The position numbers and the translations under genes were made by a program. Source: a virus. Taken from it: a stretch of DNA of 55,674 nucleotides. The DNA is taken from positions 1-55,674 of the IMG/VR virus record IMGVR_UViG_3300032282_003382. One strand, 5' to 3'. This document shows, piece after piece, positions 5,167 to 46,594 of the stretch (positions are counted from its first letter, which is position 1; each line of letters starts with the position of its first letter). Under the pieces are notes generated by a model. It had not been told where the DNA came from. It did not search any database and saw only the letters and a list, made by a program, of their open reading frames with translations.

Positions 5167-5756
5167 ATGTAGAATTTACTTGGGACACAGAGTTTGACGC
5201 TACAATAGTGTTAGACTCAGAAATCTTACCTAACAAATATCATATCATACTAGGTATGGTAACAAACACATCTGATCAGTCTGATCAGGTTCAGGCCTTT
5301 GAAAAGGTTAAATTTTTCCTCAAAGACTGGATGCAACATAGTTGTTTCTCAGAACATGGCACGCCCAGTTTTAATATTCTGATGGAACACTTTGACCAAA
5401 AAATAGTACAGTTACCAGTATCAGCATCTGACCTAATCATAGGTGCAGCATTGTTTAGTAAATTATATGCCATAGTAGATGGTTATTTAATCATTGATTT
5501 TGTTCAAATACAGAGTGACTTAGGTAGCAATGTACTGTATACTATCAGTGATGAGGATAAATTTACAGAACTTAATAGTCCAAGCTGGACTGATATGCCT
5601 TGGTGGAACAGATCAGATCTTAGTGTAAATGATCTGGAAAACAACAATCCACTTGATTGGTCAGAATTAGATCTAGAAACTACCAAAGACAAAGTTAATA
5701 AACAGAAATTTAATCCCACAATCATAAATGGTGGTAAACATGAGTCTCAGTCCTAA
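5163..5756 (+). CDS. Phage protein of unknown function
   Basis: A 197-residue acidic protein. The first 130 residues look globular (VEFTWDTEFDATIVLDS, hydrophobic strands near 95-120); the C-terminal 60 residues are hydrophilic and rich in Asn, Asp and Trp (MPWWNRSDLS). ATGA overlap with the preceding gene. It sits directly before the DnaE-like fragment and overlaps it by 17 bases, so the two are probably translated together. I see no family motif. Confidence 0.6.
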   Translation: MNVEFTWDTEFDATIVLDSEILPNKYHIILGMVTNTSDQSDQVQAFEKVKFFLKDWMQHSCFSEHGTPSFNILMEHFDQKIVQLPVSASDLIIGAALFSKLYAIVDGYLIIDFVQIQSDLGSNVLYTISDEDKFTELNSPSWTDMPWWNRSDLSVNDLENNNPLDWSELDLETTKDKVNKQKFNPTIINGGKHESQS

Positions 5757-6267
5757 CGGTGAATTTTTTGTAAACACAGATGATGCTTTTGATCTGTTAT
5801 ACACAATGCCGGAATTTGACTTAAGTAAATTAGAGTTTATTGGTGATGGAACTCTACAATTTAATCAGTCCAATACAGAATTAAAAACAGGATTTTGTAA
5901 ACTTAAGGAATTATATCATTCCTACAAATCCATATTAACTAAACCTGAATTTGATGCTGATCGTCAGAAAACTTGGTTTATGCCTGCAGAATATCAGGAT
6001 GTGGATATTGATAGTTTGGTATTAAAACGATGTACTACACAAGCTGAAACAAACAGGGCAGTTTTGGAACTGTTGGAATACAAGCAGCGGAATCTGTATC
6101 CATTGTTACAATATCTTAATTACATGGTAGAAACACTCAGGGCTAATAACATTGTTTGGGGTGTAGGTCGTGGAAGTAGTGTAGCAAGTTTTGTACTCTA
6201 CTTGTTAGGGGTTCATAAAGTAGATAGTTTGGCCTACAATTTAGATCCCTACGAATTTTTTAGGTAA
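5740..6267 (+). CDS. Truncated DNA polymerase III alpha-like protein (GRGS module only)
   Basis: Near the C-terminus the protein carries VWGVGRGSSVASFVLYLLG followed by a V-D-S-L-x-Y-N-L-D-P-Y-E-F-F element. This matches the DnaE/PolC palm segment that holds the phosphate-binding GRGS loop and the L-D-P-L-x-F-x-L-x-F-E-R-F run. The protein then stops, just before the point where DnaE has its catalytic P-D-(I/F)-D-x-D-F motif. There is also no PHP domain. At about 175 residues it cannot be a polymerase. ATG 5740 has a weak GGTGG site; ATG 5728 is the alternative. The phage has its own family-B polymerase, so this may be a binding or decoy module. Function unknown. Confidence 0.65.
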   Translation: MSLSPNGEFFVNTDDAFDLLYTMPEFDLSKLEFIGDGTLQFNQSNTELKTGFCKLKELYHSYKSILTKPEFDADRQKTWFMPAEYQDVDIDSLVLKRCTTQAETNRAVLELLEYKQRNLYPLLQYLNYMVETLRANNIVWGVGRGSSVASFVLYLLGVHKVDSLAYNLDPYEFFR

Positions 6268-6291: not shown

Positions 6292-6741
6292 ATGGCAAAG
6301 AAAATTTACAAGACTGCTCGTGGAGCACAAGTAAACATGGACAGTCTAAGACTACAAAATGAAAACGTAATAGCCGTGGGCAATATGAAGGTTAACGCTC
6401 GTGGTGATGAACTAGGACCAGGTGGTCAGGTTGTTCGTACACGCAATCAGGTACTCAAGGATCGTGAAAGAATTCATACCATGGTACCCACCGACGAACC
6501 AGTATACGCAAGTCTGGAAGAAGCATTAGCTGCTCAGGAAGAAGCTGATGCTAATGACCCAGCTATGATGGATAATCTTTCATCACAAGAATCTGTTGCA
6601 GAATCAGAGCCTGAGGAAAATCCCATAGAAGTTGAACCACCAAGCGTAAGAGGAAGCCTTGCAAGTGCTGTAACGAAACAAACTACGGTTAAACCAACTG
6701 TAACCCGTAACACTCGTCAAACAGGACTAAAGCGTATATGA
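6292..6741 (+). CDS. Acidic phage protein of unknown function, probably late
   Basis: A 149-residue protein with an ordered N-terminal 75 residues (KIYKTARGAQVNMDSLRLQN, GPGGQVVRTRNQVLKDRERI), then a Glu/Pro/Ser-rich linker (residues 85-120) and a basic C-terminus rich in Thr and Arg. I have a sense of seeing the N-terminus in other marine T4-like phages, always as a hypothetical protein. A late promoter with a strong AGGAG site drives it, which fits a virion or assembly role. It overlaps the GroES-like gene by four bases, so the two are probably made together. Confidence 0.6.
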   Translation: MAKKIYKTARGAQVNMDSLRLQNENVIAVGNMKVNARGDELGPGGQVVRTRNQVLKDRERIHTMVPTDEPVYASLEEALAAQEEADANDPAMMDNLSSQESVAESEPEENPIEVEPPSVRGSLASAVTKQTTVKPTVTRNTRQTGLKRI

Positions 6742-7109
6742 TTAACAGCATTAAAATCAAAGAACTAAAACCATTACATGATAATATTTTAGTTACTGAA
6801 ATGAACTTCAAAGAACGTTTTACAACAGGTGGTATTATTGTGGTAGGTGATGACGGCAAGGCATCTGGTATTAGACCACGTTGGGGCAAGGTATGGGCCA
6901 TTGGACCCGAGCAAACTGATGTTAAAATAGGACAATATGTTTTAGTTGCTCATGGTCGTTGGACTCGTGGTGTTAAGGTTGAAGATGACACTGGCGAATT
7001 TGTAATTCGCAGAATTGATAACAATGACATCCTATTAGTGTCTGACGAACCACTTCTTGATGACACACAAAGTACTGCTATTATTGGACAGAAAAAATCC
7101 TTTAGTTAA
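6738..7109 (+). CDS. GroES-like co-chaperonin (gp31 analogue)
   Basis: Residues 10-100 follow the Cpn10 fold: LKPLHDNILV at the first strand, a mobile loop around RFTTGGIIV, then GKVWAIGP, VKIGQYVLV and a RRIDNNDIL ending. The GG(I/V)IV mobile loop is the GroEL contact in this family. At 123 residues it is longer than bacterial GroES (about 97), like T4 gp31 (111), which replaces GroES to let GroEL fold the large capsid protein. Expected to work in the host cytoplasm on host GroEL. It is behind a late promoter with the upstream gene, which fits a role in capsid folding. Confidence 0.85.
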   Translation: MINSIKIKELKPLHDNILVTEMNFKERFTTGGIIVVGDDGKASGIRPRWGKVWAIGPEQTDVKIGQYVLVAHGRWTRGVKVEDDTGEFVIRRIDNNDILLVSDEPLLDDTQSTAIIGQKKSFS

Positions 7110-8186: not shown

Positions 8187-9103
8187 ATATCTGGACTGAA
8201 AAATATCGTCCCAAAGAAGTAGATGATTATGTGTTTCAAAATCCTGAACAAAAAGAACAAGTAAACAAGTGGATTACTGAAGGTAAGGTTCCACATCTGT
8301 TGTTTAGCGGTAGTCCTGGTACAGGTAAAACTACCTTGGCTAAATTGCTAATCCGCCAATTGGGCGTACAGGATCATGATTTACTAGAGATCAATGCTAG
8401 TCGTGAGCGTGGCATTGATACCATACGCAAAACCATTGTTAACTTTAGCAGCACTATGCCCTTTGGTGATTTTAAAATCATCCTCATGGATGAGGCAGAC
8501 TATCTGACTCCTGAAGCACAGGCAAGTATGCGTGGGGTCATGGAAGAATATGCTGAGACTGCTAGGTTTATTTTAACTTGCAACTATCCCAATAAAATTA
8601 TCCCGGCATTACACAGTCGTTGTCAGGGCTTCCATATTAATAACCTGGACCATACAGAGTTTACAGCTAGGATAGCAACTATCCTGGTAACTGAAAGCAT
8701 TGAGTTTGATCTGGATGTGTTAGACACCTTTGTCAAGGCAACCTACCCAGACTTGCGTAAATGTCTGAACTCTGTGCAACAAAGCATAGCCAATAATAAA
8801 CTCCTAGAGCCTAGTGCATCTAATGCAGGATCCCATGATTATAGACTAGACGCTGTGGAACTATTTAAACATGGTAAAACCCGCGAAGCTCGTAAGTTAA
8901 TTTGCAGTCAGGCTCGTGCAGACGAGATGGATGAATTTTTCAGATGGTGTTATGATAACCTTAGCCTGTTTAGTAAAACAGAACAGGGCCAGGACAGAGC
9001 CATAACTATTATTAAAAATGCACTAGTTAGTCATAGTCAGGTATCAGATTTTGAAATTAACATTGCAGCTATGCTAGTAGAATTATCACAAATTGGAGAA
9101 TAA
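8183..9103 (+). CDS. 44: Sliding clamp loader ATPase subunit, gp44/RFC-small type
   Basis: Starts NIWTEKYRP, the usual beginning of RFC-like clamp loaders. Walker A GSPGTGKTT is at 43-51, Walker B LMDEAD at 101-106 and the SRC motif (arginine finger) near 145 in LHSRCQGF. At 306 residues it matches T4 gp44 (319). It should form the ATPase ring that opens the gp45-like clamp (encoded at 32.1 kb) and loads it on primer junctions for the family-B polymerase. The gp62 partner is not recognised; the next gene holds its usual place but does not look like it. Confidence 0.92.
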   Translation: MNIWTEKYRPKEVDDYVFQNPEQKEQVNKWITEGKVPHLLFSGSPGTGKTTLAKLLIRQLGVQDHDLLEINASRERGIDTIRKTIVNFSSTMPFGDFKIILMDEADYLTPEAQASMRGVMEEYAETARFILTCNYPNKIIPALHSRCQGFHINNLDHTEFTARIATILVTESIEFDLDVLDTFVKATYPDLRKCLNSVQQSIANNKLLEPSASNAGSHDYRLDAVELFKHGKTREARKLICSQARADEMDEFFRWCYDNLSLFSKTEQGQDRAITIIKNALVSHSQVSDFEINIAAMLVELSQIGE

Positions 9104-9104
9104 C

Positions 9105-9446
9105 TTGAAGAAAAATAACCTATACCTCATGGCATTTTACCATAAAGTGCCCAAACATCGTGCAAAAACACAATTAAAGAACTTTGGTGGGAACGACGAC
9201 AACTGGACTTACGAAGAACGAGTAGAATTTGGTAGCAAAATCAAGGACCGTGATTACAACCTAGCTGGGGTTATCCTGGATATTGGTAATGAAAAGACTA
9301 TTAAATGCAGCATGGGACCTAATCGAGAATTCCATAGTTTACTAGGTTATTTTAAAAAGTCTTACCCACAGTACTTTCCACAAGAGCCAGCGCCAGTTAC
9401 TCAGCCTGTATTAGAAGTTAAAAAGGAAAATAATGAGCCTGCTTAA
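9105..9446 (+). CDS. Phage protein of unknown function after gp44
   Basis: The start is TTG 9105, chosen because GGAG (9095-9098) sits six bases upstream. The 113-residue protein has YHKVPKHRAKTQLKNFGG at the start, TYEERVEFGSKIKDRDYNL in the middle, a FHSLLGYFKKSYPQYF segment and a Pro/Glu-rich tail. I believe similar proteins occur as hypothetical genes in marine T4-like phages. T4 has gp62 here (187 residues), but length and motifs give no support for that. The C-terminus overlaps the signal peptide of the next gene by 14 bases. Confidence 0.6.
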   Translation: MKKNNLYLMAFYHKVPKHRAKTQLKNFGGNDDNWTYEERVEFGSKIKDRDYNLAGVILDIGNEKTIKCSMGPNREFHSLLGYFKKSYPQYFPQEPAPVTQPVLEVKKENNEPA

Positions 9447-10338
9447 GACTTTAGTCTTAGGGTTGTTTTGTTTTACAGTACAGGCTGAAACTATTACTTT
9501 AACTTCGCCTTATGGACCAGGTCATTTTACTACCCCACCAGTTTATCCCATACTAGAAGCCGCCAATCAGAGTCAGAACAAGTATAACTTTGTACTAGAA
9601 TTAAAACCCGGTGGAAATGGTGTTGTTAATGTAAGGTACATGGATCAGAGTCCTGAAACCAGACTAAGTATCATTGCTCCAGCTCATGTTGAAAACATTG
9701 ATTCTGGAGAGCTTATAGAGTCCAATTACGTTCCTGTAACCGGCCTCGGCGATGCTTGTGTAGGTGTGTTTGTTCGTAATGATCAGGTATTTAAAAAACC
9801 TGAGCTTATTGTGGGTGGAGTAGGATTTGGAAATGCTGCGCATTTAACTGGATTAAGCGTAGCAGAACGTTTTAATCAAACTAGCAGATACATACCATTT
9901 AAAACTAATCTGGATGCCTTTGTCAGTTTGGCACAGGACGGTGGTATAGACATTACCACTGAGCGAGTATTGACTTACAATAATATGCGCAGCAAGTTTC
10001 AGAATATCAGAGTGTATGCTGTTAACTGCCCTGTTAGAATAACAGATAGTCCTGAAACGCCCACAATGTCAGAGCTTGGATATAGAGTTCCCACTGTTTG
10101 GAACATTTTTATAGCCAACAAAGCCATGAGTGCTGAACGCAGAACCGAATTAGCTAAAATTTTGGATGCTTCTATAGTTAAAGTAGGTGCTGCTAAAATT
10201 AAAGAATTAAGTGATTTACGCCCACCAGTGTTTGATAGTATTAACATACAGAATTTCTATAATTCACGCATAGAAACCCATAGGTTAGTGCTCAGAAAAT
10301 ACAAATCTAAAGTAGAGTCTGATAAAAACTATAAATAA
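9433..10338 (+). CDS. TctC/Bug-type periplasmic solute-binding protein
   Basis: Residues 1-18 form a signal peptide (SLLKTLVLGLFCFTVQA, cleavage after A18). The mature part follows the tripartite tricarboxylate transporter receptor family: ITLTSPYGPG near the start (family P-x-x-P-G-G), ELKPGGNGVVN (family N-K-P-G-A-G-G), then GVGFGNAAHLTG and a conserved C-terminal MSAERRTELAKIL. Such proteins bind carboxylates or similar solutes in the periplasm and pass them to TctAB; no membrane subunits are encoded here. It is 301 residues, normal for the family, and reads as intact. The family is hugely expanded in Burkholderiales, which hints at the host. Exported use by host transporters is inferred. 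Confidence 0.8.
   Translation: MSLLKTLVLGLFCFTVQAETITLTSPYGPGHFTTPPVYPILEAANQSQNKYNFVLELKPGGNGVVNVRYMDQSPETRLSIIAPAHVENIDSGELIESNYVPVTGLGDACVGVFVRNDQVFKKPELIVGGVGFGNAAHLTGLSVAERFNQTSRYIPFKTNLDAFVSLAQDGGIDITTERVLTYNNMRSKFQNIRVYAVNCPVRITDSPETPTMSELGYRVPTVWNIFIANKAMSAERRTELAKILDASIVKVGAAKIKELSDLRPPVFDSINIQNFYNSRIETHRLVLRKYKSKVESDKNYK
10330..10337 (+). promoter_or_regulatory. Late promoter, perfect TATAAATA
   Basis: Identical to the T4 late consensus. It overlaps the stop of the TctC-like gene and is followed by CAAGGA (10346-10351) and ATG 10360. It gives the DctP-like gene its own late transcription, ended by the hairpin at 11348. Confidence 0.8.
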
Positions 10339-10359
10339 GAATATACAAGGACTAAACTT

Positions 10360-11316
10360 ATGGACAAGACATACAAAATCAAATGGGTAGTAGCACACGA
10401 TCCACTTTATCTGTTTCTCAGAGCTGCTGAGGATTTCAAAGCTGAAGTAAATGCTCGCTGCAATAACTACAAAATTGATGTAGAGATCATGACCCCTACA
10501 CAATATGCAGAGCGTTATAATGATGGTAAGTATGTCCCACGTCAGGAACTATTCAACCTTATGCACTCTGGTGCAGTACAAATGAGTCAGATGGTTACAA
10601 CTACTCTAGCTGCAAAATTTAACAAACAGATGCATGTTTTAGATATGCCATTCTTGTTTAAAGATCATGATCACGCAACTGAAGTATTAGAAGGCAAAGT
10701 AGGAGAGTATCTACTAAACAGTTTTACTCCTGAAAGCAAAGTTAAAGGTTTAGCATTTACATACTCAGGTGGTTTTAGATGTGTTCCAACTAACCAGGAT
10801 GTAAGTAGCCTAGCTGACTTAGTAAATCAACCTATTCGTACTGGTATGAATCCCATGGCTGTAGAAACATTTAAAGCTATTGGTGCTACTCCAGTTCAAA
10901 TGGAACTAGAAGAAATTAATCAGGGTGTATCAGAAGGTCTTATTGTTGGCGGTGAGAGTGCATTTCCTAGAATATACCCATGCAACCAGAATGAGTTTAG
11001 TAAAACAGTTTTAGACACTGGCCATAGTTTATTCTTAACCAGCATTATTGTAAGCACTGATTGGTGGAATACATTACCTGCAGAGCTTAGAGAAATTATT
11101 GCTGATAGTGCAGTAGCAGCAGGCCGAGCAGAACGCCGTAAGAGTATTGAAGATGGTGAAGACACTAAAGTTAAATTAGCCGCAGAAGGTGTTAAGGTAA
11201 TTACATTATCTGATGCTGATAAAGCTGAGTTTAAGGCCAAGACAGAAACAGTATATGCAAAGTTTGCTGACTTCTTTAATCCTGGTCTTGTTGAAGACAT
11301 CAGAAGAGTACATTAA
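10360..11316 (+). CDS. TRAP-type DctP-like solute-binding protein lacking signal peptide
   Basis: The 318 residues follow the DctP family (PF03480) along their whole length: YKIKWVVAHDP as first strand, a KAEV/YKIDVEIMTPTQ second strand, VLDMPFLFKDHDHA (the family L-x-x-P-F-L-F block), GLAFTYSGGFRC, a DLVNQPIRTG hinge with the Arg that binds the substrate carboxylate, and LFLTSIIVSTDWWNTLP. It begins where mature DctP proteins begin: there is no signal peptide and no suitable upstream start. It has its own late promoter and terminator. It may therefore act in the cytoplasm or be packed in the virion, unless an unusual export route exists. No DctQM is present. Confidence 0.8.
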   Translation: MDKTYKIKWVVAHDPLYLFLRAAEDFKAEVNARCNNYKIDVEIMTPTQYAERYNDGKYVPRQELFNLMHSGAVQMSQMVTTTLAAKFNKQMHVLDMPFLFKDHDHATEVLEGKVGEYLLNSFTPESKVKGLAFTYSGGFRCVPTNQDVSSLADLVNQPIRTGMNPMAVETFKAIGATPVQMELEEINQGVSEGLIVGGESAFPRIYPCNQNEFSKTVLDTGHSLFLTSIIVSTDWWNTLPAELREIIADSAVAAGRAERRKSIEDGEDTKVKLAAEGVKVITLSDADKAEFKAKTETVYAKFADFFNPGLVEDIRRVH

Positions 11317-11347
11317 TCTGAAGGTGTTGTGAAAATTAATAAACCAT

Positions 11348-11372
11348 AAAACCCCATGTTGGGGTTTTATGT
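11348..11372 (+). terminator. Rho-independent terminator
   Basis: AAAACCCC (11348-11355) pairs perfectly with GGGGTTTT (11361-11368) around the loop ATGTT. The run of T is contained in the 3' arm. It closes the solute-binding gene unit; the rest of the 94-base gap shows nothing else. Confidence 0.8.
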
Positions 11373-11410: not shown

Positions 11411-12631
11411 TTGAAGCTGGTTTACAAATCGCAAATCATAAATCCTAAATTAGGATTTTATGAGGTAGGCAAAGATATTTTTTATAATAAAGTAGAAGCC
11501 CTAGAGGCAGCTACTAGGTTAAAACTACCATTTGAATCTATACATTGGAATTTTAATGATAATGTATATAAGAAGGTTGATTGGATTACTGAACCAGAAA
11601 TCTCATTAAGATCTCTATATGAAACCAGAGCTAGACAACTTAGAGAAAAATATGATTATATCATAATGAATTGTAGTGGTGGATCTGATTCAAATACTGC
11701 TCTGTTCAGTTTTATAAATCAAGGATTGCATGTTGATGAAATTGTAGTTAGGTATGCTAAAGCAGCCACTCAGGGTAAAAAACCAGATTTTTTTAACTTG
11801 GCACCAGAGAATGAACACAGTGAATATTTTTTTGCTGTAAAACCCATGATTAGATGGTTACAAAAAGTAAGCCCTAAAACAAAAATAACCATACACGATC
11901 ATAGTTTTGATGCATTTAATGATAAAAATTATTTTGACGAAAACTTTATTTACTGGTGTGGAGATTTCCAAAGTCCTGGTTTCATAACTAGATTCCATCA
12001 CAATACTATCATAGAAAATTTAAGAGAATTTGACAAAGATAAAAAAATTGCTATTGTGTTTGGTATAGATAAACCTAAGATTTATCTTAAAGGTGATAAA
12101 CTGCACACTTTTTTCCTAGACGCACCCATGCAACCTGGACTGGTTCCAACATTTACAGATAATACCAACATAACTTCAGAACTGTTTTACTGGACACCAG
12201 ACTTGCCAGAAATAGTCGTTAAACAATGTCACGAACTTAAAAAATGGTTTTTAATACCGCAGAACAGACCTTATATTAGAATTTTAGATTATAACAAAGT
12301 TAAAGATCCACATTATAGGACTTTTTATGAAACAGTACTCAAGGGTGTAATTTATCCTGATTACGATTTGGGCACATTTCAGTGTAATAAACCTGGTAAA
12401 AGCACATTACAAGAATGGGATTTTTGGATTAAAGATTTTAAACACACCAATGGTTATAATATCTGGGTAGATGGACTAAAGCACATTATTCAAAATGTTA
12501 ACCCTTTATATTTTGATAAGACCCCTGAGCTTGAAACTTTTAACTGGAATATAAAAAGAATTCAAAGTAATAATTATTTCATAGGCTCATTTCCACTTCC
12601 ACCTAGTAAACTAATAGAACTAAACTACTGA
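11411..12631 (+). CDS. PP-loop (N-type ATP pyrophosphatase) family protein
   Basis: The ATP-pyrophosphate loop SGGSDS is at residues 89-94, after a hydrophobic strand (YDYIIMNC). PP-loop enzymes adenylate a carboxylate, amide or oxo group and then add a nucleophile, as in asparagine synthetase, GuaA, TilS or QueC. The 406-residue protein is longer than QueC and lacks its zinc cysteine cluster, so it is a different branch. The start is TTG 11411; no ATG lies near it. The gene is flanked by a terminator before and a sigma-70 promoter after, so it stands alone. Two other PP-loop proteins lie at 42.7 and 44.3 kb. Substrate unknown. Confidence 0.65.
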   Translation: MKLVYKSQIINPKLGFYEVGKDIFYNKVEALEAATRLKLPFESIHWNFNDNVYKKVDWITEPEISLRSLYETRARQLREKYDYIIMNCSGGSDSNTALFSFINQGLHVDEIVVRYAKAATQGKKPDFFNLAPENEHSEYFFAVKPMIRWLQKVSPKTKITIHDHSFDAFNDKNYFDENFIYWCGDFQSPGFITRFHHNTIIENLREFDKDKKIAIVFGIDKPKIYLKGDKLHTFFLDAPMQPGLVPTFTDNTNITSELFYWTPDLPEIVVKQCHELKKWFLIPQNRPYIRILDYNKVKDPHYRTFYETVLKGVIYPDYDLGTFQCNKPGKSTLQEWDFWIKDFKHTNGYNIWVDGLKHIIQNVNPLYFDKTPELETFNWNIKRIQSNNYFIGSFPLPPSKLIELNY

Positions 12632-12652: not shown

Positions 12653-12681
12653 TTGACATCAGATTAGATTTCACATATAAT
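12653..12681 (+). promoter_or_regulatory. Consensus sigma-70 promoter, TTGACA-17-TATAAT
   Basis: TTGACA at 12653-12658 and TATAAT at 12676-12681 are both perfect and 17 bases apart. GGAG (12701-12704) and ATG 12711 follow. A strong host-type promoter, expected to fire right after infection. Confidence 0.9.
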
Positions 12682-32125: not shown

Positions 32126-32860
32126 ATGAAAGACAACCTTACAGACCTAGTTAACCATACCCATGTATTGGGCAATGTTAGCTTTGTTAAAATTGTTGGC
32201 ACAGACAAAGAAACTGAATTCCAGAGCGTAGCTGATGACAAATCAGTTATTATTCAGGGTAAGTTTAAGAATGTTATCCCTGAGTTCAATGGCGTATTTG
32301 GTATGCCTAACTTAACCAAACTAAACATCATTCTTAACATTCCTGAGTATGATACCGATGCTAGCATTGTAGTTAATACCCAAACTAAGAATGGTGAAAC
32401 TGTACCTAGCGGATTGCGTTTTGAAAACAAAGCCAGCGACTTTAGAAACGATTATCGTTTCATGAGCACTGAAATTGTAAACGAAAAGCTCAAGGATCTA
32501 AAAGCTAAGACTAGTATTAAGTGGAATGTTAGTGTACAACCTAGCGTAGCAAATATTCAGCGTTTTAAATTCCAGAGCCAAGCAAACACAGAAGAGCCTG
32601 TATTTGTAGCCAAGACTGATGGTAGTAAACTAAAGTTTCACTTTGGTGACCCAAGTAGCATGAACGGTGAGTTTGTGTTTGATAATGGTATTTCAGGAAC
32701 ATTGACCAAGGCCTGGCAATTTCCAGTAGCACCAGTAATCAGTATCCTAAACTTGCTAGGCGATAAGACTTTGCAGATTAGTGATCAGGGTGCTCTACAA
32801 ATTATTGTTGACTCAGGCACAGCAGAATACACCTACACACTACCAGCACAAGTTAAATAA
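32126..32860 (+). CDS. 45: Sliding clamp, gp45-like
   Basis: 244 residues, near T4 gp45 (228). VIPEFNGVFGMPNLTKLNIIL resembles the D-L-x-G-F-L-G-x-L-x-L segment of gp45, and the rest shows the alternating strands and pseudo-repeat of clamp folds, ending in TAEYTYTLPAQ. It should trimerise around DNA, be loaded by the gp44 protein, tether the polymerase and, in T4-type phages, activate late promoters through gp33 and gp55, neither of which is recognised here. The stop overlaps the start of the TGT-like gene. Confidence 0.8.
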   Translation: MKDNLTDLVNHTHVLGNVSFVKIVGTDKETEFQSVADDKSVIIQGKFKNVIPEFNGVFGMPNLTKLNIILNIPEYDTDASIVVNTQTKNGETVPSGLRFENKASDFRNDYRFMSTEIVNEKLKDLKAKTSIKWNVSVQPSVANIQRFKFQSQANTEEPVFVAKTDGSKLKFHFGDPSSMNGEFVFDNGISGTLTKAWQFPVAPVISILNLLGDKTLQISDQGALQIIVDSGTAEYTYTLPAQVK

Positions 32861-34494
32861 TGACCATTGCTAAAGACAATCTGACAGCAAGACAGAAGGA
32901 TTATGCTATCTTCCTTCCAGCTATCTCTGGTTTTTATAGCGGCTATGTAGGCAAACAACGACATGAAACCCATGTAGACCCTGCTCGTATCCCTAGCAGG
33001 TTTGAACACGGCATAGAAGGTCTTAACTTCCTAAATCCTGAGCAGGCTTACTTCCCATATCGTTGGGGCCTATATAGTGCTGGCCATGCTAACCTAGATA
33101 CATCTAAGTTTGATGCATCTGAGGATATGATTCGTAATCGTGACAAGGATAGTTTTATTCTTGGTGACTCAGGTGGTTTCCAGATTGGTAAAGGCGTCTG
33201 GGAAGGTGATTGGAGAGCTGGTTCTGGTTGTGCCAAGGCGCATAAAAAGCGTACACAAGTTCTGGACTGGATGGAAAGTTACATGAACTATGGTATGACC
33301 CTAGACGTGCCCGGTTGGGTAGGGCGTACCCCCGCAGGTGTTGCTGCTACTAAGATTAGCAACTATGGCGAAGCTGTTGAAGCCACAAAGTTTAACTTTG
33401 AATATTGGTTAAGGAATCGTAAAGGTAACTGTAAGTTTTTAACTGTGCTACAGGGAGACAACCATAAAGAAGCTGACGAGTGGTACAATGAGATGAAGAA
33501 GTTTTGTGACCCTAAAGTATATCCCAACGATCACTTCAATGGTTGGGCCATGGGATCACAAAATAAATGCGATGCTCATTTAGTAGTAAAGCGGTTAGTA
33601 ACCATGATTTATGATGGATTGTTGGAAACTGGCAAACAGGACTGGATTCACTATTTGGGTACTAGTAAGTTAGAATGGGCTATGATGTTTACAGATATAC
33701 AAAGAGCCATACGCAAGTATCATAATCCTAACTTTACTATTAGCTTTGACTGTGCTAGTCCATTCTTAGCTACTGCTAATGGTCAGGTCTATAACGAAAA
33801 TAGACTAGATAATCGTGGTAAGTGGGCTTACAAGATGATTAAATGTGTAGACGATAAAAAGTATGCTCGTGATAGTCGTATGTTCAGAGATGCTGTTATC
33901 CAGGATGGTATCTACAAGAACTTTATTGATAGTCCTATAATGCAGCGTACTGAGATCAAAGATATTTGCATCTATGGTGCAGGTGTACGCAAGACCGATG
34001 CTGAACTTGGTGGTACTAAGTTTAATGTTAATAACGATGATCATTATCATGTTAAGCCAGATCGTAATAAGATTAATAAAGTAGGACGCACTAGTTGGGA
34101 CAGTTTTAGCTATGCTATCTTAATGGGCCATAACATTCATGCGCACATTAGATCTGTGCAGGATGGTAACGATCTGTATGACAGTGGTGTTATTCCAGCA
34201 GCTCTGGTAAGAGAACAGACTGACAGAAAATATTTCAGAGACTTAGTAGACTCAATCTTTAGTGCGCCTAGTTATGGTGCAGCCATGGCCATAGTTGATC
34301 ATGATTACAATAGTAAATGGTTCATGGATATTCGTGGCAGTAGTGCAAACGGTTATCTGGGTAAGAATGCCAGAAACGCCAATACTATGTTTGATGAACT
34401 ATTTGACATGCAAACTGGTCCACCAGTAGTAAATGAAGATGGTCTAAACCTTGCAAAACTAGATGCTCTGGAAGAAGCAGAAAAGAAGAAATAA
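32860..34494 (+). CDS. TGT/DpdA-like 7-deazaguanine base-exchange enzyme
   Basis: 544 residues with the tRNA-guanine transglycosylase barrel motifs in order: GDSGGFQ (D103, general acid/base), TLDVPGW (D149), TVLQGD (197-200), NGWAMGS (228-233) and SFDCASP (nucleophile D297). The C-x-C-x-x-C zinc motif of tRNA TGTs is not visible. The length and the context with FolE, QueD and QueE fit DpdA, the TGT relative that puts 7-deazaguanine bases into DNA. ATG 32860 shares a base with the clamp stop (TAATG). So it likely modifies guanine in phage DNA during replication, protecting it from restriction. A tRNA target is the alternative. Confidence 0.82.
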   Translation: MTIAKDNLTARQKDYAIFLPAISGFYSGYVGKQRHETHVDPARIPSRFEHGIEGLNFLNPEQAYFPYRWGLYSAGHANLDTSKFDASEDMIRNRDKDSFILGDSGGFQIGKGVWEGDWRAGSGCAKAHKKRTQVLDWMESYMNYGMTLDVPGWVGRTPAGVAATKISNYGEAVEATKFNFEYWLRNRKGNCKFLTVLQGDNHKEADEWYNEMKKFCDPKVYPNDHFNGWAMGSQNKCDAHLVVKRLVTMIYDGLLETGKQDWIHYLGTSKLEWAMMFTDIQRAIRKYHNPNFTISFDCASPFLATANGQVYNENRLDNRGKWAYKMIKCVDDKKYARDSRMFRDAVIQDGIYKNFIDSPIMQRTEIKDICIYGAGVRKTDAELGGTKFNVNNDDHYHVKPDRNKINKVGRTSWDSFSYAILMGHNIHAHIRSVQDGNDLYDSGVIPAALVREQTDRKYFRDLVDSIFSAPSYGAAMAIVDHDYNSKWFMDIRGSSANGYLGKNARNANTMFDELFDMQTGPPVVNEDGLNLAKLDALEEAEKKK

Positions 34495-34496
34495 GT

Positions 34497-34525
34497 TTGA
34501 TTTTATTAATTTATAATAGTATAAT
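34497..34525 (+). promoter_or_regulatory. Candidate sigma-70 promoter, TTGATT-17-TATAAT
   Basis: TTGATT (34497-34502) and TATAAT (34520-34525) are 17 bases apart; a second TATAAT lies at 34512. It starts the unit T-fold protein, small gene, glycosyltransferase, folE. Confidence 0.65.
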
Positions 34526-34534
34526 AGGAACATT

Positions 34535-34987
34535 ATGGAACAACATAAACAAGCCATGACAGAACAGCGTCAAAGAATACAGGATCGTGCTACAAAAATG
34601 ATCTGGGTTACCTTTCGCAAGGAAGGTATCCACAAGTATCCAGCAGCAGCTACAGATCCAAGTCTGGCTACAGGTGACGAATATGATGTCAGTTTCTTAG
34701 CTACCCCACATCGTCATATCTTTCATTTTAGAGTAGCCATACAAGTATTTCATGATGACAGAGATATTGAGTTTATTCAGTTTAAGCGTTGGCTGGAAAA
34801 ACTTTATAGTGAAGGTACTCTGCAACTTAACTATAAGAGCTGTGAAATGATTTCAGATGATCTATATCAGATTATCGCAACCAGGTATCCAGACCGTGAC
34901 ATTGAAATTGATGTTGCGGAAGATGGAGAAAACGGTAGTGGTACAAAGTATCTAACGCATTATCCTAACTTAAACATGAAAATATAA
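34535..34987 (+). CDS. T-fold (QueD/PTPS-like) divergent protein
   Basis: 150 residues. I read it as a divergent T-fold protein: GIHKYPAA (H33) and ATPHRHIFHF (H59, H61) can give the three zinc His of QueD/PTPS; DDRDIEFIQFKRWL matches the G-M-x-x-D-F-x-x-L-K block; SCEMISDDLYQII and EIDVAEDGENG match the P-T-x-E-N-L-A and V-x-V-x-E blocks. The phage's true QueD (45232) shows the same layout with CEGLADFLYEYI and VEVRET. Activity is unknown. Its operon with FolE, which makes the QueD substrate, supports a role in pterin or deazaguanine chemistry. Confidence 0.55.
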   Translation: MEQHKQAMTEQRQRIQDRATKMIWVTFRKEGIHKYPAAATDPSLATGDEYDVSFLATPHRHIFHFRVAIQVFHDDRDIEFIQFKRWLEKLYSEGTLQLNYKSCEMISDDLYQIIATRYPDRDIEIDVAEDGENGSGTKYLTHYPNLNMKI

Positions 34988-34996
34988 GGAATTATC

Positions 34997-35224
34997 ATGG
35001 CTCATCCAGCTTGGCTTAAGAAGTATTTGAAAATGAAACCTGAAGTATCTGACATCTTCACAGACCTAGAAGAATTTAAGGCGTTTTGTGTAAAGTATGG
35101 TAGAGTATTCAGAGAAGCTGATCTATATAATAATCGCAATGAGACTTACCAGGACTTTAACCGCAGCAAAGCCGGCAAGAATGTTAAAAACGGCTGGTCT
35201 GAAGAACTTAAAAAGATGGCATAA
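34997..35224 (+). CDS. Small protein of unknown function
   Basis: 75 residues, basic, mostly helical (FTDLEEFKAFCVKYGRVFRE, with QDFNRSKAGKNVKNGW). AAGGA site ahead of ATG 34997. Lies between the T-fold and glycosyltransferase genes, overlapping the next start by one base. No motif. Confidence 0.6.
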   Translation: MAHPAWLKKYLKMKPEVSDIFTDLEEFKAFCVKYGRVFREADLYNNRNETYQDFNRSKAGKNVKNGWSEELKKMA

Positions 35225-36297
35225 TGAATACGATTTATATTGTACCCATTGAACCTATTGATCAAAGGTACACTAAACAATGGTATGAAAATATCCCAGA
35301 ATTGTTTAATACAGCCATTTTTAATAATAAACTAAAATACAAAGTAAAAACACTAGATGGTGTTCAGTTAACTGCTGGTACTACATCTGGTGCATTTTTA
35401 GACTTTGGTGCCACTAATGTTTATAAGGCTAGTCAGACACAGCTCATTAGTGAAATGTTTAGCAGAGGTGAGATTGTAGCAGGAGATAAGTTTTTAGTAA
35501 CTGATGCCTGGAATTTTGTAATCACTGCTATCAGATATATGTCTGACTTGTTAGAGATTCCTGTAGAGATACATGGTATCTGGCATGCAGGTGCTTATGA
35601 CCCAAGTGATATTTTAGGTTATAAAATGTCTAAACCCTGGCCCTGGCATACTGAACTTGGTTGGTTTCATGCTTGTACTACTAACTATTATGCTACTCAT
35701 TTTCATAGAGATATGTTTATGCGTAATTTAGAAATTGACAATGATATCTATGGTTACAAGGCCATAGTAAGCGGACAGCCACATAATCCCATTATTGCTC
35801 AGTGTGAAAAATATGTTTCCAAAACTAAGAAAGAAATGGTTATTTGGCCACATCGTTATAATGATGACAAGCAGCCTAATATCATAGAAGATCTTTCAAA
35901 GCGATTAACTCCAGAAGTAGTTATTACTCAGAAAATGAATCTAAACAAGGATAAGTTTTATGAGACCATGGGTGATGCTAGTGTAGTGTTTAGTTGCAGC
36001 CTACATGAGAACTTGGGTATTAGTCAGATGGAAGGTACTTTGGCTGGAGCCATTCCAGTAGTTCCAGATCGTTGTAGTTACTCAGAAATGTATGTGCCAG
36101 AATTTAAATATCCAAGTATCTGGACCGAAAGTTTCGACAATTATAAGAAATACAAGGCTGATATTATTGACTTTATTTCTGACAAAGTGTACAATAGATC
36201 TAAATATATCACAGCACTAGCATATCAGACAGATATCTTAAAGAACAAATATCTGAATGCTGATGTAATGATTAACAATATTTTAGGATTAAAATGA
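35224..36297 (+). CDS. GT-B type glycosyltransferase-like protein
   Basis: 357 residues. The C-terminal half carries the retaining GT-B pattern: VFSCSLHENLGISQMEGTLAGAIPVVPDRCSYSEMY, with the family's E-x-x-G-x-x-x-x-E-A-x-A-x-G-x-P-V-V block. The N-terminal half has IYIVPIEP and LEIPVEIHGIWHAG as the first Rossmann strands. It likely transfers a hexose from a nucleotide sugar. Sitting in one unit with folE and the T-fold gene and downstream of the DpdA-like gene, it could sugar-coat modified DNA as T4 does with hydroxymethylcytosine, or act on a surface glycan. The acceptor is not known. Confidence 0.7.
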   Translation: MNTIYIVPIEPIDQRYTKQWYENIPELFNTAIFNNKLKYKVKTLDGVQLTAGTTSGAFLDFGATNVYKASQTQLISEMFSRGEIVAGDKFLVTDAWNFVITAIRYMSDLLEIPVEIHGIWHAGAYDPSDILGYKMSKPWPWHTELGWFHACTTNYYATHFHRDMFMRNLEIDNDIYGYKAIVSGQPHNPIIAQCEKYVSKTKKEMVIWPHRYNDDKQPNIIEDLSKRLTPEVVITQKMNLNKDKFYETMGDASVVFSCSLHENLGISQMEGTLAGAIPVVPDRCSYSEMYVPEFKYPSIWTESFDNYKKYKADIIDFISDKVYNRSKYITALAYQTDILKNKYLNADVMINNILGLK

Positions 36298-37004
36298 CAG
36301 ACACAAGCAAACATCTATCACAAGTATTACGCGAGCGCATGAAGTCCGATGGTAAAAGGTTCTGGGCCGGAGATAACATCAGCGACTACATAGCTGAATC
36401 AGACAAAGAACACTTGATCTCTGAAGCCACAGAAGCATTTGAAAAGGTTCTGGATGTATTACTAATTGATCGCGAAAACGATCCTAACAGTAAAGGCACA
36501 GCCAAACGATTGGCCAAGATGTACTTCAATGAGATTATGTCAGGACGCTATGATCCGGCACCTAATGCTACATCGTTTCCCAACAATAATGATGATGGTG
36601 CTCAACCCTATAACGGTATGATAGTTGTCAGGGCAGAACTAAAGAGTATGTGTAGTCATCATCATCAACCAGTTACTGGTACAGCCTATATTGGTGTTAT
36701 TCCCAATGGCAGAGTAATTGGACTTAGCAAGTATATTAGAATTGCGCAATGGTGTGCTCGCAGAGGTACTTTGCAAGAACAATTATGTAATGATATTGCC
36801 AACAATATTGGTATTGCTACTGGTAGTGGAAATCTTGGTGTATATGTACAAGCTACTCATGGTTGTTGTGAAAACCGTGGTGTAATGGCTCGTAGTAGTC
36901 TTACACAAACCACAGTATTACGTGGTGCATTTAATGACGATCCTGGTACCAAGAAAGAATTTTTCGACAACATTAAACTACAACAAGATTTTGCTCCTCG
37001 TTAA
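36294..37004 (+). CDS. folE: GTP cyclohydrolase I
   Basis: 236 residues. The FolE core is clear: SMCSHHHQPVTG with the zinc ligands Cys120 and His123, PNGRVIGLSKYIRI, the RGTLQEQLCNDIAN helix, and VQATHGCCENRGVMARSS with the third zinc Cys (191 or 192). The reaction opens GTP to 7,8-dihydroneopterin triphosphate, first step of both folate and 7-deazaguanine synthesis. With QueD and QueE in the same window the deazaguanine branch is favoured. ATGA overlap with the glycosyltransferase gene. No fusion or gap seen. Confidence 0.95.
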   Translation: MTDTSKHLSQVLRERMKSDGKRFWAGDNISDYIAESDKEHLISEATEAFEKVLDVLLIDRENDPNSKGTAKRLAKMYFNEIMSGRYDPAPNATSFPNNNDDGAQPYNGMIVVRAELKSMCSHHHQPVTGTAYIGVIPNGRVIGLSKYIRIAQWCARRGTLQEQLCNDIANNIGIATGSGNLGVYVQATHGCCENRGVMARSSLTQTTVLRGAFNDDPGTKKEFFDNIKLQQDFAPR

Positions 37005-37012
37005 GGGAAACT

Positions 37013-37414
37013 ATGAAAGTAGGACTTAGTTATAGCCGCTGCATCGTGGACATCCTGGATGGCCAGGTGCAGGAAAGAGATGTTTTAGTCATTGTCACGG
37101 GCACCAAGTTTGACCCGCACAATGATCAGCAATGGGCTGACATCTATCGTGGTTATGAGATCACCTGGTCCCGGTTCAACTATACCGAAAGCGAATACCG
37201 CGATCTCACTATCCGGATGTACAACAATGGTCAGATACACCAACCGCGTTTGTTTGACGCTGGCCGTCGTTTTACAGGCGAAACTATATGGGGCCGATAT
37301 TGGCGTGACCTTGTGCCGATTCCCGAAGATCTAGAACAGCATCCTGCTGCGCAGGAACTCTGGGATCAGTTTAAAATGGTTGCTGCATTAAGCGATATTA
37401 AAATTATTGATTAA
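37013..37414 (+). CDS. Phage protein of unknown function, higher GC
   Basis: 133 residues. KVGLSYSRCIVDILDGQV, DVLVIVTGTKFDPH, QWADIYRGYEITWS and NGQIHQPRLF are blocks I believe recur in hypothetical proteins of T4-like phages. Codon use is visibly GC-richer than in neighbours (gtcacgggcaccaagtttg), which suggests a different history. An AAGGGAAA site precedes the ATG. The fold looks alpha/beta; no function known. Confidence 0.6.
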   Translation: MKVGLSYSRCIVDILDGQVQERDVLVIVTGTKFDPHNDQQWADIYRGYEITWSRFNYTESEYRDLTIRMYNNGQIHQPRLFDAGRRFTGETIWGRYWRDLVPIPEDLEQHPAAQELWDQFKMVAALSDIKIID

Positions 37415-37422
37415 GAGAAGTT

Positions 37423-37869
37423 ATGCCACGCAAACAGAAAGAACTAAAAGTACCATGTTTTAGTTGTACAACCATGCATAAGGAAAGTGAACTGATTGAA
37501 ATGTCTGGTCAGTTAATTTGCCCTAGTTGTGGTGAAGGCTGGGTTATGTTAGACCAGCGTGATAGCTATGTTGAAGTGGATTTATTAGAAGCATTAGAAG
37601 AATTAAAGCGTGAATTTGAATCATTAGTAGTACCACTAACCAAGGAGAATAAAATGGCAAAAAGTAAGCCCGCAGTAAAAACCATCAGCGACAAGCTGGT
37701 CAAAGTAAACGAAAACTTCACCATTAACATGTATGACAACGGTTTCATGATTGAAGTTGGCGGCCGAGACAACGAGAACGAGTGGAAGAATGCCAAGATC
37801 ATGGTGACCACCGTGGATGAACTGGTGGCCCTGGTGCGTGAAGCCACTGAAATGGAACGAGATAGTTAA
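37423..37869 (+). CDS. Zinc-ribbon protein, possibly with internal start
   Basis: 148 residues. The first 77 hold a zinc ribbon (CFSC, then CPSC 16 residues later) and an acidic helix. The second part, from Met78, is KVNENFTINMYDNGFMIEVGG with a helical end, GC-richer than the first. An AAGGAG site stands directly before Met78 (37654), so a second product of 71 residues is likely. The gene reads like an in-frame join of two phage genes. The ribbon might bind nucleic acid. Confidence 0.65.
   Translation: MPRKQKELKVPCFSCTTMHKESELIEMSGQLICPSCGEGWVMLDQRDSYVEVDLLEALEELKREFESLVVPLTKENKMAKSKPAVKTISDKLVKVNENFTINMYDNGFMIEVGGRDNENEWKNAKIMVTTVDELVALVREATEMERDS
37642..37656 (+). promoter_or_regulatory. 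Internal ribosome binding site and ATG within zinc-ribbon gene
   Basis: AAGGAG (37642-37647) lies six bases before an in-frame ATG (37654). It is a stronger site than the one at the gene start, so the C-terminal part is probably also made alone. Confidence 0.65.
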
Positions 37870-37896
37870 TTTAACAATTTTATTTGGAGTTTTATT

Positions 37897-38283
37897 ATGA
37901 AACCTGTTTGTGCATATCCATCGTGTAATTCTTTGGTTCATACTGTAGATAGAAAACGAAAGAAACTAAGAACTGTGTGTAAAACTCATCACACAACGAA
38001 AAAAGATTTAGTTAATGCTTGGAAATTATCTAAACAATGTGCCAACAAACATGGTGACATTACTGGTACTCCTTGTCTGGTTACAGATAAATTTACTAAC
38101 CCTTCACACTTGGACATTGATCATGTTGATGGAAATCCGTTTAACAACAACCCAAACAATCATCAAGTCTTGTGTAAGTTATGTCATATAGATAAAACTA
38201 TGAGACGGCAAGATCATATGCGTAGTGCAAAACAGAAATCATTTACAAGCACTGCTGGTAATCTTTTTCACGGAGTAAATTAA
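37897..38283 (+). CDS. HNH endonuclease-like protein
   Basis: 128 residues. The HNH core is LDIDHVDGNPFNNNPNNHQVLCKLCH: D-H of the first motif, N-N-P-N-N as the Asn part and a C-x-x-C-H ending. Additional Cys pairs (CAYPSC, CKTHH) suggest zinc binding at the N-terminus. This is the size of free-standing phage HNH homing endonucleases, which cut DNA and often spread between phages. It is preceded by a GGAG site. Target site not known. Confidence 0.8.
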   Translation: MKPVCAYPSCNSLVHTVDRKRKKLRTVCKTHHTTKKDLVNAWKLSKQCANKHGDITGTPCLVTDKFTNPSHLDIDHVDGNPFNNNPNNHQVLCKLCHIDKTMRRQDHMRSAKQKSFTSTAGNLFHGVN

Positions 38284-38284
38284 T

Positions 38285-38698
38285 ATGACTTCATGGACCA
38301 TAGCAACCACAGAAAAGAAATCTTGCGAAGAGCGGGAAATCTGGACCAAGGGTGATCAAGAGATTGTAGTAATAAATGGCTTCCGTTGGGGATCATATAG
38401 TGTTGAAACATCTGACGATAATCCACCAGATGGTATTACTGCAGAAAACTCCGAGGGTATTGATATGAATGCTCTATACGGTGACAACATTGAAAACTCA
38501 GAACTAATTAGCATGGATGATGGCTGGTATGGTGACATTGAATATAGCGATAATATCACCGAAGAAGCACAAGAACTAATACAGGAAGGTATTGACGAAG
38601 AAGGCGACCATTATAGTTACTTAGAAAATAATGGTTGGACTAACGATGATACCGAAGCCTGGTTTTTTGGACCGTTGGAAATTACTAAAGAAGATTAA
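38285..38698 (+). CDS. Strongly acidic phage protein of unknown function
   Basis: 137 residues, about a quarter Asp and Glu with very few Lys or Arg after residue 35. Trp residues recur (SWTIATTEKK, NGFRWGSYSV, DDGWYGDIEY, NNGWTNDDTEAWFFGPLEI). High negative charge with aromatic residues would suit a DNA mimic (anti-restriction) protein, but charge alone does not prove it. GGAG site before the ATG; the stop overlaps the next gene. Confidence 0.6.
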   Translation: MTSWTIATTEKKSCEEREIWTKGDQEIVVINGFRWGSYSVETSDDNPPDGITAENSEGIDMNALYGDNIENSELISMDDGWYGDIEYSDNITEEAQELIQEGIDEEGDHYSYLENNGWTNDDTEAWFFGPLEITKED

Positions 38699-39369
38699 TG
38701 CAAGCTCATATCATTACCCTTAAAGGGCATGAGTTATCTGAAAGACTAAGTCAGGAGTGCAGAGCCCAGGCAGCAAAGTTTAATATAACTGCCTGGGTTT
38801 TTGATGCCATCTGGGGTAAAGATTATGCTGAACATGCCAGTAAGTTAAATATCCACATCCATCCAACTGTACCTAATGGTAAAATGACCATAGGTCACTA
38901 TGGTAATTTTCTGAGCCATTTTTATCTATGGCAGCAATGCGTTAAAGATGCTAAACCTTATCTGATATTAGAACACGATGGCTACTTCATTAAGCCGCTA
39001 CCTAATAATATTTTAGATCAGTTCACTGATGTACTTAAACTAGACAGTATTGATCCGTATCGCAAAGACTATGAGCAAGTAATGGCTGACGAGTTTAATA
39101 TGCCATTGTGTATCCGAAATATAAAGCCTAGTAAAGTTAAACAAGCTGGTGGTTACACCTGGGGCTGTTATGCCTATATTATTAAACCACATGCTGCCCA
39201 AAAACTTATTGACTGGGTCAAAGAATATGGGTTCTTACCCACAGATAATCAGATAGGCCTTGGTATTATAGATATTAAAACTTGTTATCCAACCATAGCA
39301 AGGATGCATCCATTTTTGTGCATAGGAGATAATATCTATACCCAATCTACAGCAGCCTACACCGAGTAG
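38698..39369 (+). CDS. GT25-like glycosyltransferase
   Basis: 223 residues. HIITLKGHELSERLSQEC, GHYGNFLSHFYLWQQCV and LILEHDGYFIKPLP (the family's L-E-D-D metal site, here E-H-D) with GGYTWGCYAYIIKPHAAQKLI and FLPTDNQIG match the GT25 family of LPS galactosyltransferases. It could alter host LPS to block other phages, or decorate virion sugars. The middle acidic motif differs from the usual E-D-D, so the metal site may be altered. TAATG overlap with the gene before. Confidence 0.75.
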   Translation: MQAHIITLKGHELSERLSQECRAQAAKFNITAWVFDAIWGKDYAEHASKLNIHIHPTVPNGKMTIGHYGNFLSHFYLWQQCVKDAKPYLILEHDGYFIKPLPNNILDQFTDVLKLDSIDPYRKDYEQVMADEFNMPLCIRNIKPSKVKQAGGYTWGCYAYIIKPHAAQKLIDWVKEYGFLPTDNQIGLGIIDIKTCYPTIARMHPFLCIGDNIYTQSTAAYTE

Positions 39370-39371
39370 TC

Positions 39372-39379
39372 CATAAATA
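39372..39379 (+). promoter_or_regulatory. Late-type motif, CATAAATA
   Basis: TAAATA core four bases before ATG 39384, so any transcript from it would start inside the radical SAM gene. It may be chance, or the true start codon may lie further downstream. Confidence 0.3.
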
Positions 39380-39383
39380 AAAA

Positions 39384-40484
39384 ATGGAAGATAATAAGCA
39401 CGAAACACTTACACAACAATATAGCACCTGGGGCGATAAGTTATTACAACATACTGATGTTTTACATAGCATTCAGTTTAAAAGGCAATTTAAACCCATA
39501 ACTGTTCAGCTGAGTCCAGTAGAAGCTTGTAGTAGCGGCTGTCCATTTTGTAGTGTTGCTGAGAGACCATTAAAGTCATATCTGCCCTGGGCTGATCTTA
39601 AAAAAGTACTAGAGGATTTTAAATCCCTGGGTGCCAAAAGCATAGAGATAACTGGTGGCGGTGAACCTTTATTATACAGGGATAAAGAAGCCAAGACTGA
39701 CATCAATTCCATTGTAGAATATGCTTCAGAGCTAGGATATGACATTGGTATCATAACCAACACTTTAAAACTAAATCGTATTAAACCAGAAAACTTTGAT
39801 AAAATTAAATGGATTCGCATAAGCCTAATTAAACTGGATGAAGGTTATAATCCAGAAGATTATGATTTTGCTGGATTCCCCAAGTCTAAAATTGGTCTAA
39901 GCTATATCATTTATGAAGGTACTCAAGGAACTGGTACTAGACTAGGCATGAGTTATAAGCCTACTGATGTTGAGACCATAAACAGAATTGCCAAAGTAGT
40001 TGAATTACATCCTGAAATTAAATTCGTTAGAATTGCTGGTAATTGTTTAATCAAAGGTAATAATGCTCTGATCCGAGACAAGTTTAAAAGAGTAATAGAT
40101 GCCATAGACACCAATAACAAGATATTCATTAAAGATATTGGTGATGATGACAGTCCCTTTGATCAGGGCTGTTATGTGGGCATGGTTAGGCCTTATGTAG
40201 CACCTGATCCCACTGGTACTGGAAAATACAAAGTTTACACCTGTACTAGTCATGTTCTGAACAAGCAAAATTATGATTTAGACTATGCCCTGTGTGATGT
40301 AGATAATATTAAGTCAACCTGGGAAGCATTAAATAAGAATTATGCAGACCAGGGTTATCCATATCAGATAAAAAACAACTGCGGTACAAATTGGACTGAA
40401 TCATGTAACTATTGTTACTACAAGTTCAATAACAAGATACTGCATACTGTTGCCCAGGAAATGCCTGATAAAAATTTTGCTTAA
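39384..40484 (+). CDS. Radical SAM protein with SPASM-like C-terminus
   Basis: 366 residues. The [4Fe-4S] motif CSSGCPFC gives C49, C53 and C56 (CX3CX2C), followed by SIEITGGGEPLLY (SAM-binding GGE). The C-terminus has further Cys (CYVGM, YTCTSHV, and NCGTNWTESCNYCYY) like the auxiliary clusters of SPASM proteins. Such enzymes generate a 5'-deoxyadenosyl radical to change peptides or small molecules. No obvious peptide substrate is next to it. The methyltransferase gene starts on its last base. Confidence 0.85.
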   Translation: MEDNKHETLTQQYSTWGDKLLQHTDVLHSIQFKRQFKPITVQLSPVEACSSGCPFCSVAERPLKSYLPWADLKKVLEDFKSLGAKSIEITGGGEPLLYRDKEAKTDINSIVEYASELGYDIGIITNTLKLNRIKPENFDKIKWIRISLIKLDEGYNPEDYDFAGFPKSKIGLSYIIYEGTQGTGTRLGMSYKPTDVETINRIAKVVELHPEIKFVRIAGNCLIKGNNALIRDKFKRVIDAIDTNNKIFIKDIGDDDSPFDQGCYVGMVRPYVAPDPTGTGKYKVYTCTSHVLNKQNYDLDYALCDVDNIKSTWEALNKNYADQGYPYQIKNNCGTNWTESCNYCYYKFNNKILHTVAQEMPDKNFA

Positions 40485-41068
40485 TGAACAAATTCGACGA
40501 ACAATACTACAAAACAAATAACTACACAAATTACTTAAGTAAAAAAGAACGATATCTCAGAACAGCCGATGAGATATATCAGACTTTTAATAAGTTTAGC
40601 ATACTTAATACAGAATCTACCATATTGGATTATGGTTGTGGTGTAGGATTTTTAATTGCTGGTTTTGAAAAAATTGGATTTCAGAATGTCTATGGATACG
40701 ATATATCTGAATGGGCCACTGCCAAAGCATCAGAGTTTGGTCATAAACTAATATCTAAACCAGAGGGCTTTTATGATCTGGGTATCTTTTTAGATGTTTT
40801 GGAACACATGACTGATGAACAAATAGATACTACTTTTTTAAAATTAGAATTTGACAAAGTATTGGTGCGCATACCTTGCAGCGTACCCACAGATCCAAAA
40901 CGATTCTTTTTAGAAGTAAGCAGGCAGGATGATACCCATATTAATTGTAAAACACCATCAGGCTGGATTGAATGTTTCCGTAAAATAGGATACAAGGTCC
41001 ATTTGGAACTGAATATGGCCAGTATATACAATTCTGATGGATGTTTTTGCAGTTTGTTTATCAGATGA
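40484..41068 (+). CDS. Class I SAM-dependent methyltransferase
   Basis: 194 residues. Motif I is ILDYGCGVGFLIAGF, with YGYDIS as the ribose-binding acidic strand and DLGIFLDVLEHM as motif III/IV, a pattern of the Methyltransf_23 group that acts on small molecules such as quinones or sugars. Stop-start overlap with the radical SAM gene suggests one pathway. Substrate unknown. Confidence 0.8.
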   Translation: MNKFDEQYYKTNNYTNYLSKKERYLRTADEIYQTFNKFSILNTESTILDYGCGVGFLIAGFEKIGFQNVYGYDISEWATAKASEFGHKLISKPEGFYDLGIFLDVLEHMTDEQIDTTFLKLEFDKVLVRIPCSVPTDPKRFFLEVSRQDDTHINCKTPSGWIECFRKIGYKVHLELNMASIYNSDGCFCSLFIR

Positions 41069-41070
41069 GC

Positions 41071-41097
41071 TTGACTATTATTGTAGTATCGTATAAT
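41071..41097 (+). promoter_or_regulatory. Candidate sigma-70 promoter before cupin operon
   Basis: TTGACT (41071-41076) with TATAAT (41092-41097; 15-base spacing) or TAATAT (41095-41100; 18). AAGGAG and ATG 41131 follow. It would drive the long coupled unit from the cupin to the second PP-loop gene. Confidence 0.55.
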
Positions 41098-41130
41098 ATT
41101 AGTTCTTAATTAAGTGCCAAGGAGTAGCTA

Positions 41131-45150: not shown

Positions 45151-45153
45151 ATA
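45146..45153 (+). promoter_or_regulatory. Late-type motif, CATAAATA
   Basis: TAAATA core overlapping the PP-loop B stop, 78 bases before the queD ATG. The rest of the 81-base gap shows no other promoter. A late supply of QueD is possible. Confidence 0.45.
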
Positions 45154-45231
45154 TTAGTCAGAGGACTTGGCATTCACCCCTCTTAAAACATTCTGCATGC
45201 CATAAAACTTACTCAGAGAAAGAGGCAAGAG

Positions 45232-46568: not shown

Positions 46569-46594
46569 TCCACATTAACTTTAAGGAGAAATAA

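Follow-up and report, generated by a model that had tools for sequence, protein, structure and literature searches.

Genes for carboxylate transport have been noted in phages earlier, such as tctA in the SUP05 viruses (PMC4164917) and the TRAP receptor-like ORF193 in the Ralstonia jumbo phage RP12 (PMC5468394), and the available portions of these two reports describe neither a leaderless DctP, i.e., one without a signal peptide, nor a PP-loop neighbour. An RP12 protein from the viral structure library showed only 7% identity in the alignment. Two UniProt entries from an uncultured Caudovirales phage, A0A6J7WI33 and A0A6J7WKL0, annotated as 'TRAP transporter solute receptor DctP/TeaA', belong to the same family as the protein described here (55% and 44% identity, respectively); with 159 and 162 aa, they have the size of two split lobes and are the two halves of a split copy. 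For these entries the deposited annotation was found, with no analysis, and the literature searches returned no published description of a leaderless phage DctP family.

The stretch of DNA analysed here (the window) is the whole of the IMG/VR record IMGVR_UViG_3300032282_003382, 55,674 nt (55.7 kb) in length, and represents a fragment of the larger genome of an uncultured jumbo-type phage, the DNA polymerase of which is closest to those of the Sinorhizobium phage Phosso (469 kb) and the Agrobacterium phage Atu_ph07 (490 kb). Adjacent genes for a TctC/Bug-type and a DctP-type protein had been proposed at positions 9433-11316 in a sequence-only reading, and both open reading frames were found at this place. 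The TctC protein has in common with the TctC/Bug receptors (BugD, 2f5x; PF03401) the signal peptide, the match to the TctC profile and the presence of TctA, the TTT permease, in some related phages, whereas it is divergent, falling below the Pfam cut-off, and no TctA was found in the 55.7 kb of this genome fragment. With the TRAP solute-binding proteins (DctP family, PF03480; IseP, 8t9t; SiaP), the DctP protein shares the fold, the Pfam match and the carboxylate arginine; unlike them, the phage proteins lack a signal peptide, have the invariant motifs WVxAHEP, FTYSGG, R204 and ER..S, occur in phages without detected DctQ or DctM, and exist also in split-lobe versions.

The TctC and DctP proteins of the window

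The TctC/Bug-type gene (9433..10338, plus strand) encodes a solute-binding protein of 301 aa, predicted to be exported. Its N-terminus consists of MSLLKTLVLGLFCFTVQA (9433..9486, plus strand) followed by ETIT, a normal signal peptide with a maximal 9-residue hydropathy of 2.56, as compared with 1.67 or less in every phage DctP, so that both the N-terminus and the hydropathy agree with the signal peptide ascribed to this protein earlier. Taken alone, the protein scores 18.1 bits to Pfam TctC, under the cut-off of 27; it is placed in the family because TctC is the sole match of its phage relatives at E<=0.01 (18 of 18) and a profile from two phage TctC sequences reaches BugD at 3e-7. The maximal N-terminal hydropathy amounts to at least 2.29 in all the 18 phage TctCs, and this measure fully separates them from the phage DctPs. 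The start of TctC is overlapped by 14 nt by a small gene that follows the clamp loader (9093..9446, plus strand), which is likely a case of translational coupling.

The DctP gene (10360..11316, plus strand) starts 21 nt past the end of TctC, with its own Shine-Dalgarno sequence AAGGA (10347..10351, plus strand) 8 nt before the ATG at 10360, and a 12-pair hairpin directly 3' of the gene (11345..11371) is terminator-like on the minus strand only. The product, 318 aa in length and scoring 166 bits to PF03480, was characterized by Pfam, start site, structure and hydropathy as a DctP-fold protein without a signal peptide, predicted to be cytosolic. The start codon is fixed by the Shine-Dalgarno sequence and by a stop in the same frame eight codons before it, with no alternative start codon; inspection of the start site and the N-terminus ruled out that a start or signal peptide farther upstream had been missed. 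In the AlphaFold model (pLDDT 96), which has the two-lobed solute-binding fold, the first strand begins already at residue 4, and the binding fold is therefore complete. The best match among the solved structures is the isethionate receptor IseP (TM 0.87), and R160 aligns with KIR/KVR, the carboxylate arginine of the solved TRAP binding proteins; both R160 and R140 are kept in at least 90% of 52 phage DctPs. Since it has no export signal, DctP is expected to remain in the cytosol, a predicted location that is well supported, and it probably acts inside the infected cell and not as a transporter helper. No sign of a virion-protein nature was seen for either TctC or DctP.

Relatives of DctP in phages and bacteria

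Single-protein scans of the viral contigs and the genome contigs matched no relatives. These were reached via the clamp-loader locus, which led to a related contig, L013, carrying in the same region a TctC as well as two copies of DctP, and then by the use of an alignment of three DctPs as the query, which retrieved 185 viral contigs encoding DctP relatives, of which 80 were kept. Both L013 copies have AGGAG directly before the leaderless start, and both have lost the carboxylate arginine. The contigs reach 345 kb in length, and the phage contexts are of more than one kind, some of the loci having T4-like replication genes. A signal peptide was absent from all the 52 distinct phage DctPs examined, as judged by a simple hydropathy measure (the 9-residue maximum given above) and not by a trained signal-peptide predictor; in nearly all of them the start coincides with the motif [KR]W[VL][LI]AHEP, and in most a Shine-Dalgarno sequence accompanies this mature N-terminus. 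The phage DctP represents a known fold that is predicted to operate in a cell compartment new for it, and it is widespread among uncultured phages. INPHARED (50,697 phage records) contained no member of the leaderless family; its DctP matches at 20-30% identity look bacterial and were set aside, the one inspected, on a Salmonella contig, having yiaO adjoining DctM.

In four pairs, two of them in L114 and one each in L128 and the L013 contig (L114:6964-8984, L128:8971-9928, G020:38045-38804), DctP is encoded as two open reading frames of about 160 aa, all divided at one position close to residue 158, which leaves R140 in one half and R160 in the other. One L114 pair has an 18-nt gap and a fresh ATG, and therefore a frameshift or sequencing error was ruled out for it. 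Tandem DctP paralogues were found in L013, L114, L128 and L141.

The leaderless form is not confined to phages, since the 52-row phage alignment, used as the query, yielded 22 bacterial loci, some of which carry such copies too. Among the cellular DctPs, the closest are leaderless and come from Bacteriovoracaceae and gammaproteobacterial MAGs, where most of them adjoin an MFS transporter; they do not point to the transporter-rich donor that had been supposed. A leaderless DctP with a PP-loop gene occurs in a Xanthobacteraceae MAG, and both the leaderless and the signal-peptide forms occur within two Bacteriovoracaceae MAGs. The nearest relatives with a signal peptide are the 'AHEP' DctPs of Bdellovibrionota (L166-L169, L171, L173, L174), in which, unlike the phage copies, a signal peptide (hydropathy 2.3-3.5) stands ahead of the same W[VL]LAHEP motif, thus providing an internal positive control; the neighbours of some of them include an AMP-ligase and an ABC transporter of the NMT1 type, and a PP-loop gene is never among the neighbours. 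In the tree, one clade (96/99) unites all the phage and seven bacterial leaderless DctPs, with the signal-peptide proteins outside. Three bacterial copies that appear leaderless (L172, L177 and L179) also fall outside this clade and, therefore, the signal peptide may have been lost more than once; a single loss across the whole superfamily is not claimed.

Neighbouring genes and the possible function

The gene downstream of DctP (11411..12631, plus strand) encodes a PP-loop protein of 406 aa with the motif SGGSDS, a conserved neighbour of the phage DctPs. The residues S89, G90, G91, D93 and S94 of the SGGxDS motif are invariant in 21 sequences. The window protein stays below every Pfam cut-off and has weak Foldseek matches, the best one, a carbapenam synthetase, having an E of 2.8e-3, with none at E<=0.001; the other top matches, also weak, include GMP, beta-lactam, NAD and Asn synthetases. 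The putative assignment as a PP-loop, Asn-synthase-like protein rests on the invariant motif together with this weak resemblance in structure to the carbapenam, beta-lactam, GMP and Asn synthetases. In 25 of the 37 non-redundant loci, the phage DctP has a PP-loop protein no more than two genes away, as compared with a mean of 9.1 and a maximum of 15 in the random-position null, and PP-loop matches were found in 2 of the 77 background jumbo-phage loci. In the bacterial loci, the motif accompanies five of the ten leaderless copies versus none of the 11 with a signal peptide (one-sided Fisher test, about 0.012), and two of these five neighbours are a clear Asn_synthase (80-84 bits). Four leaderless bacterial copies (L160, L161, L162 and L170) have no PP-loop gene nearby, an MFS transporter being located just upstream in three of them, and L172 is located with an ABC transporter. 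Two of the PP-loop proteins were searched against INPHARED, with no match.

TctC lies within one gene of the phage DctP in 9 of the 37 loci (random-position mean 2.4, maximum 7), and this side-by-side pairing is not by chance; genome-wide, TctC is not clearly more frequent in the DctP phages (15/40) than in other jumbo phages (10/38). The TRAP permease, DctM/DctQ, was found in none of the 40 viral records with DctP, the bacterial controls being positive, although these records may be incomplete and the host may have a TRAP permease of its own. TctA is encoded in 7 of the 40 records, and only one of the 37 loci has it within two genes of DctP; the order PP-loop, TctA, a small signal-peptide-bearing protein and DctP was seen in L133 and L136. 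A DUF2061 membrane protein occurs within two genes of DctP in eight loci (null 1.8), and in eight of the 37 loci none of the four partners is nearby.

A possible reading of these data, which we prefer but hold tentatively, is an uptake-and-capture cassette, in which TctC supplies a carboxylate, the cytosolic DctP captures it, and the PP-loop enzyme uses it with ATP. TctC would pass the carboxylate on to a TTT permease, which would be that of the host in this case and which some related phages encode themselves; the two-lobed DctP would shut around this carboxylate, or a product of it, in the cytosol and hold or present it to the PP-loop enzyme, which may use ATP to activate it in the manner of asparagine or beta-lactam synthetases. 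The product might become attached to a molecule of the phage or of the host, or a host metabolite might be diverted. The wider proposal, that it is a phage-spread system in which a TRAP binding protein has been relocated to the cytosol, in some cases as two separate lobes, and has become the substrate-capturing partner of a TctC-fed PP-loop ligase, is put forward with more reserve.

Among the alternatives, it is rather unlikely that DctP serves in the cytosol as a sponge or sensor, sequestering a host metabolite or signal that bears a carboxylate, possibly one used in defence, with no need for an enzymatic partner and with the tandem and split paralogues as diversification. The complete two-lobed binding fold in the predicted cytosolic location, the tandem copies and the loss of the carboxylate arginine from both L013 copies are consistent with such a role, whereas a metabolic role is indicated by the linkage to the PP-loop proteins and carboxylate transporters, the bacterial leaderless copies are also kept beside transporter genes, and no defence link was seen. 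The frequency of DUF2061 near DctP, the records with TctA and the MFS transporters adjoining the bacterial leaderless copies would agree with a cytosolic accessory of a carboxylate importer, trapping the solute at the inner face and driving its accumulation, with DUF2061 or TctA as the membrane partner; however, stoichiometric capture would be expensive for bulk uptake, most loci have no adjacent transporter gene, and DUF2061 is without a known function, which makes this explanation decidedly unlikely.

The view that both proteins are periplasmic receptors raising carboxylate uptake in the infected cell, in the manner of the auxiliary metabolic gene pstS, was that of the sequence-only reading and is quite improbable as a whole. 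For TctC an uptake role is plausible, given its signal peptide and the TctA of some related phages. DctP comes from a transporter family, yet the second uptake booster akin to PstS was not borne out, with no export signal in it or in any of the phage relatives examined, most of which have a Shine-Dalgarno sequence at the mature N-terminus, and no TRAP permease in the phage records. That DctP is a decaying host-derived gene, which lost the signal peptide by accident, would fit the entirely leaderless phage clade as one loss, but is contradicted by the 28 invariant residues among the 52 sequences, the intact frames, the own ribosome-binding sites and the high-confidence fold, and is extremely improbable.

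A domain-based annotation would assign DctP to the TRAP transporter genes and take it for a booster of uptake, which is a caution for the catalogues of auxiliary metabolic genes. The leaderless family found in many phages, and tied to PP-loop enzymes there and in several bacterial phyla, suggests that binding proteins may be reused for intracellular chemistry in infection, and provides a small set of proteins that is directly testable.

Other genes of the window and of the related loci

Two further PP-loop proteins of the same family as that at 11411 (42652-43473 and 44248-45150) flank a Rieske [2Fe-2S] protein (43470; PF00355, 29 bits) at window positions 42652-45150. Directly upstream of the clamp loader, a Cpn10-like gene (6738-7109) has a homologue in almost every one of the 78 related viral loci, and a segment (VGRGSSVASFVLYLLGV) of the protein at 5728-6267 resembles, by eye only, the active site of the bacterial DNA polymerase III alpha. 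A sigma-70 promoter with 12/12 consensus (TTGACA-17-TATAAT) is located at 12653-12681, upstream of the gene at 12711. Within 32860-48587, FolE-like (36294), QueD-like (45232) and QueE-like (47712) proteins and a YhhQ-like transporter (46595) were recognized by eye from the sequence, and the protein at 32860, which is without a Pfam match, is possibly TGT/DpdA-like; together with this candidate, the set suggests a 7-deazaguanine DNA modification.

In two jumbo-phage loci (L035:18858-20909 and L047:11121-13632), TctA adjoins a signal-peptide-bearing protein with no Pfam match, possibly forming a phage-encoded TTT import pair. Six DctP phages (L083, L104, L132, L137, L153 and L155) carry also BKACE (PF05853; 301 bits in L132) and SDR, and most of them AMP-ligase genes too, an unusual acyl-metabolism set.
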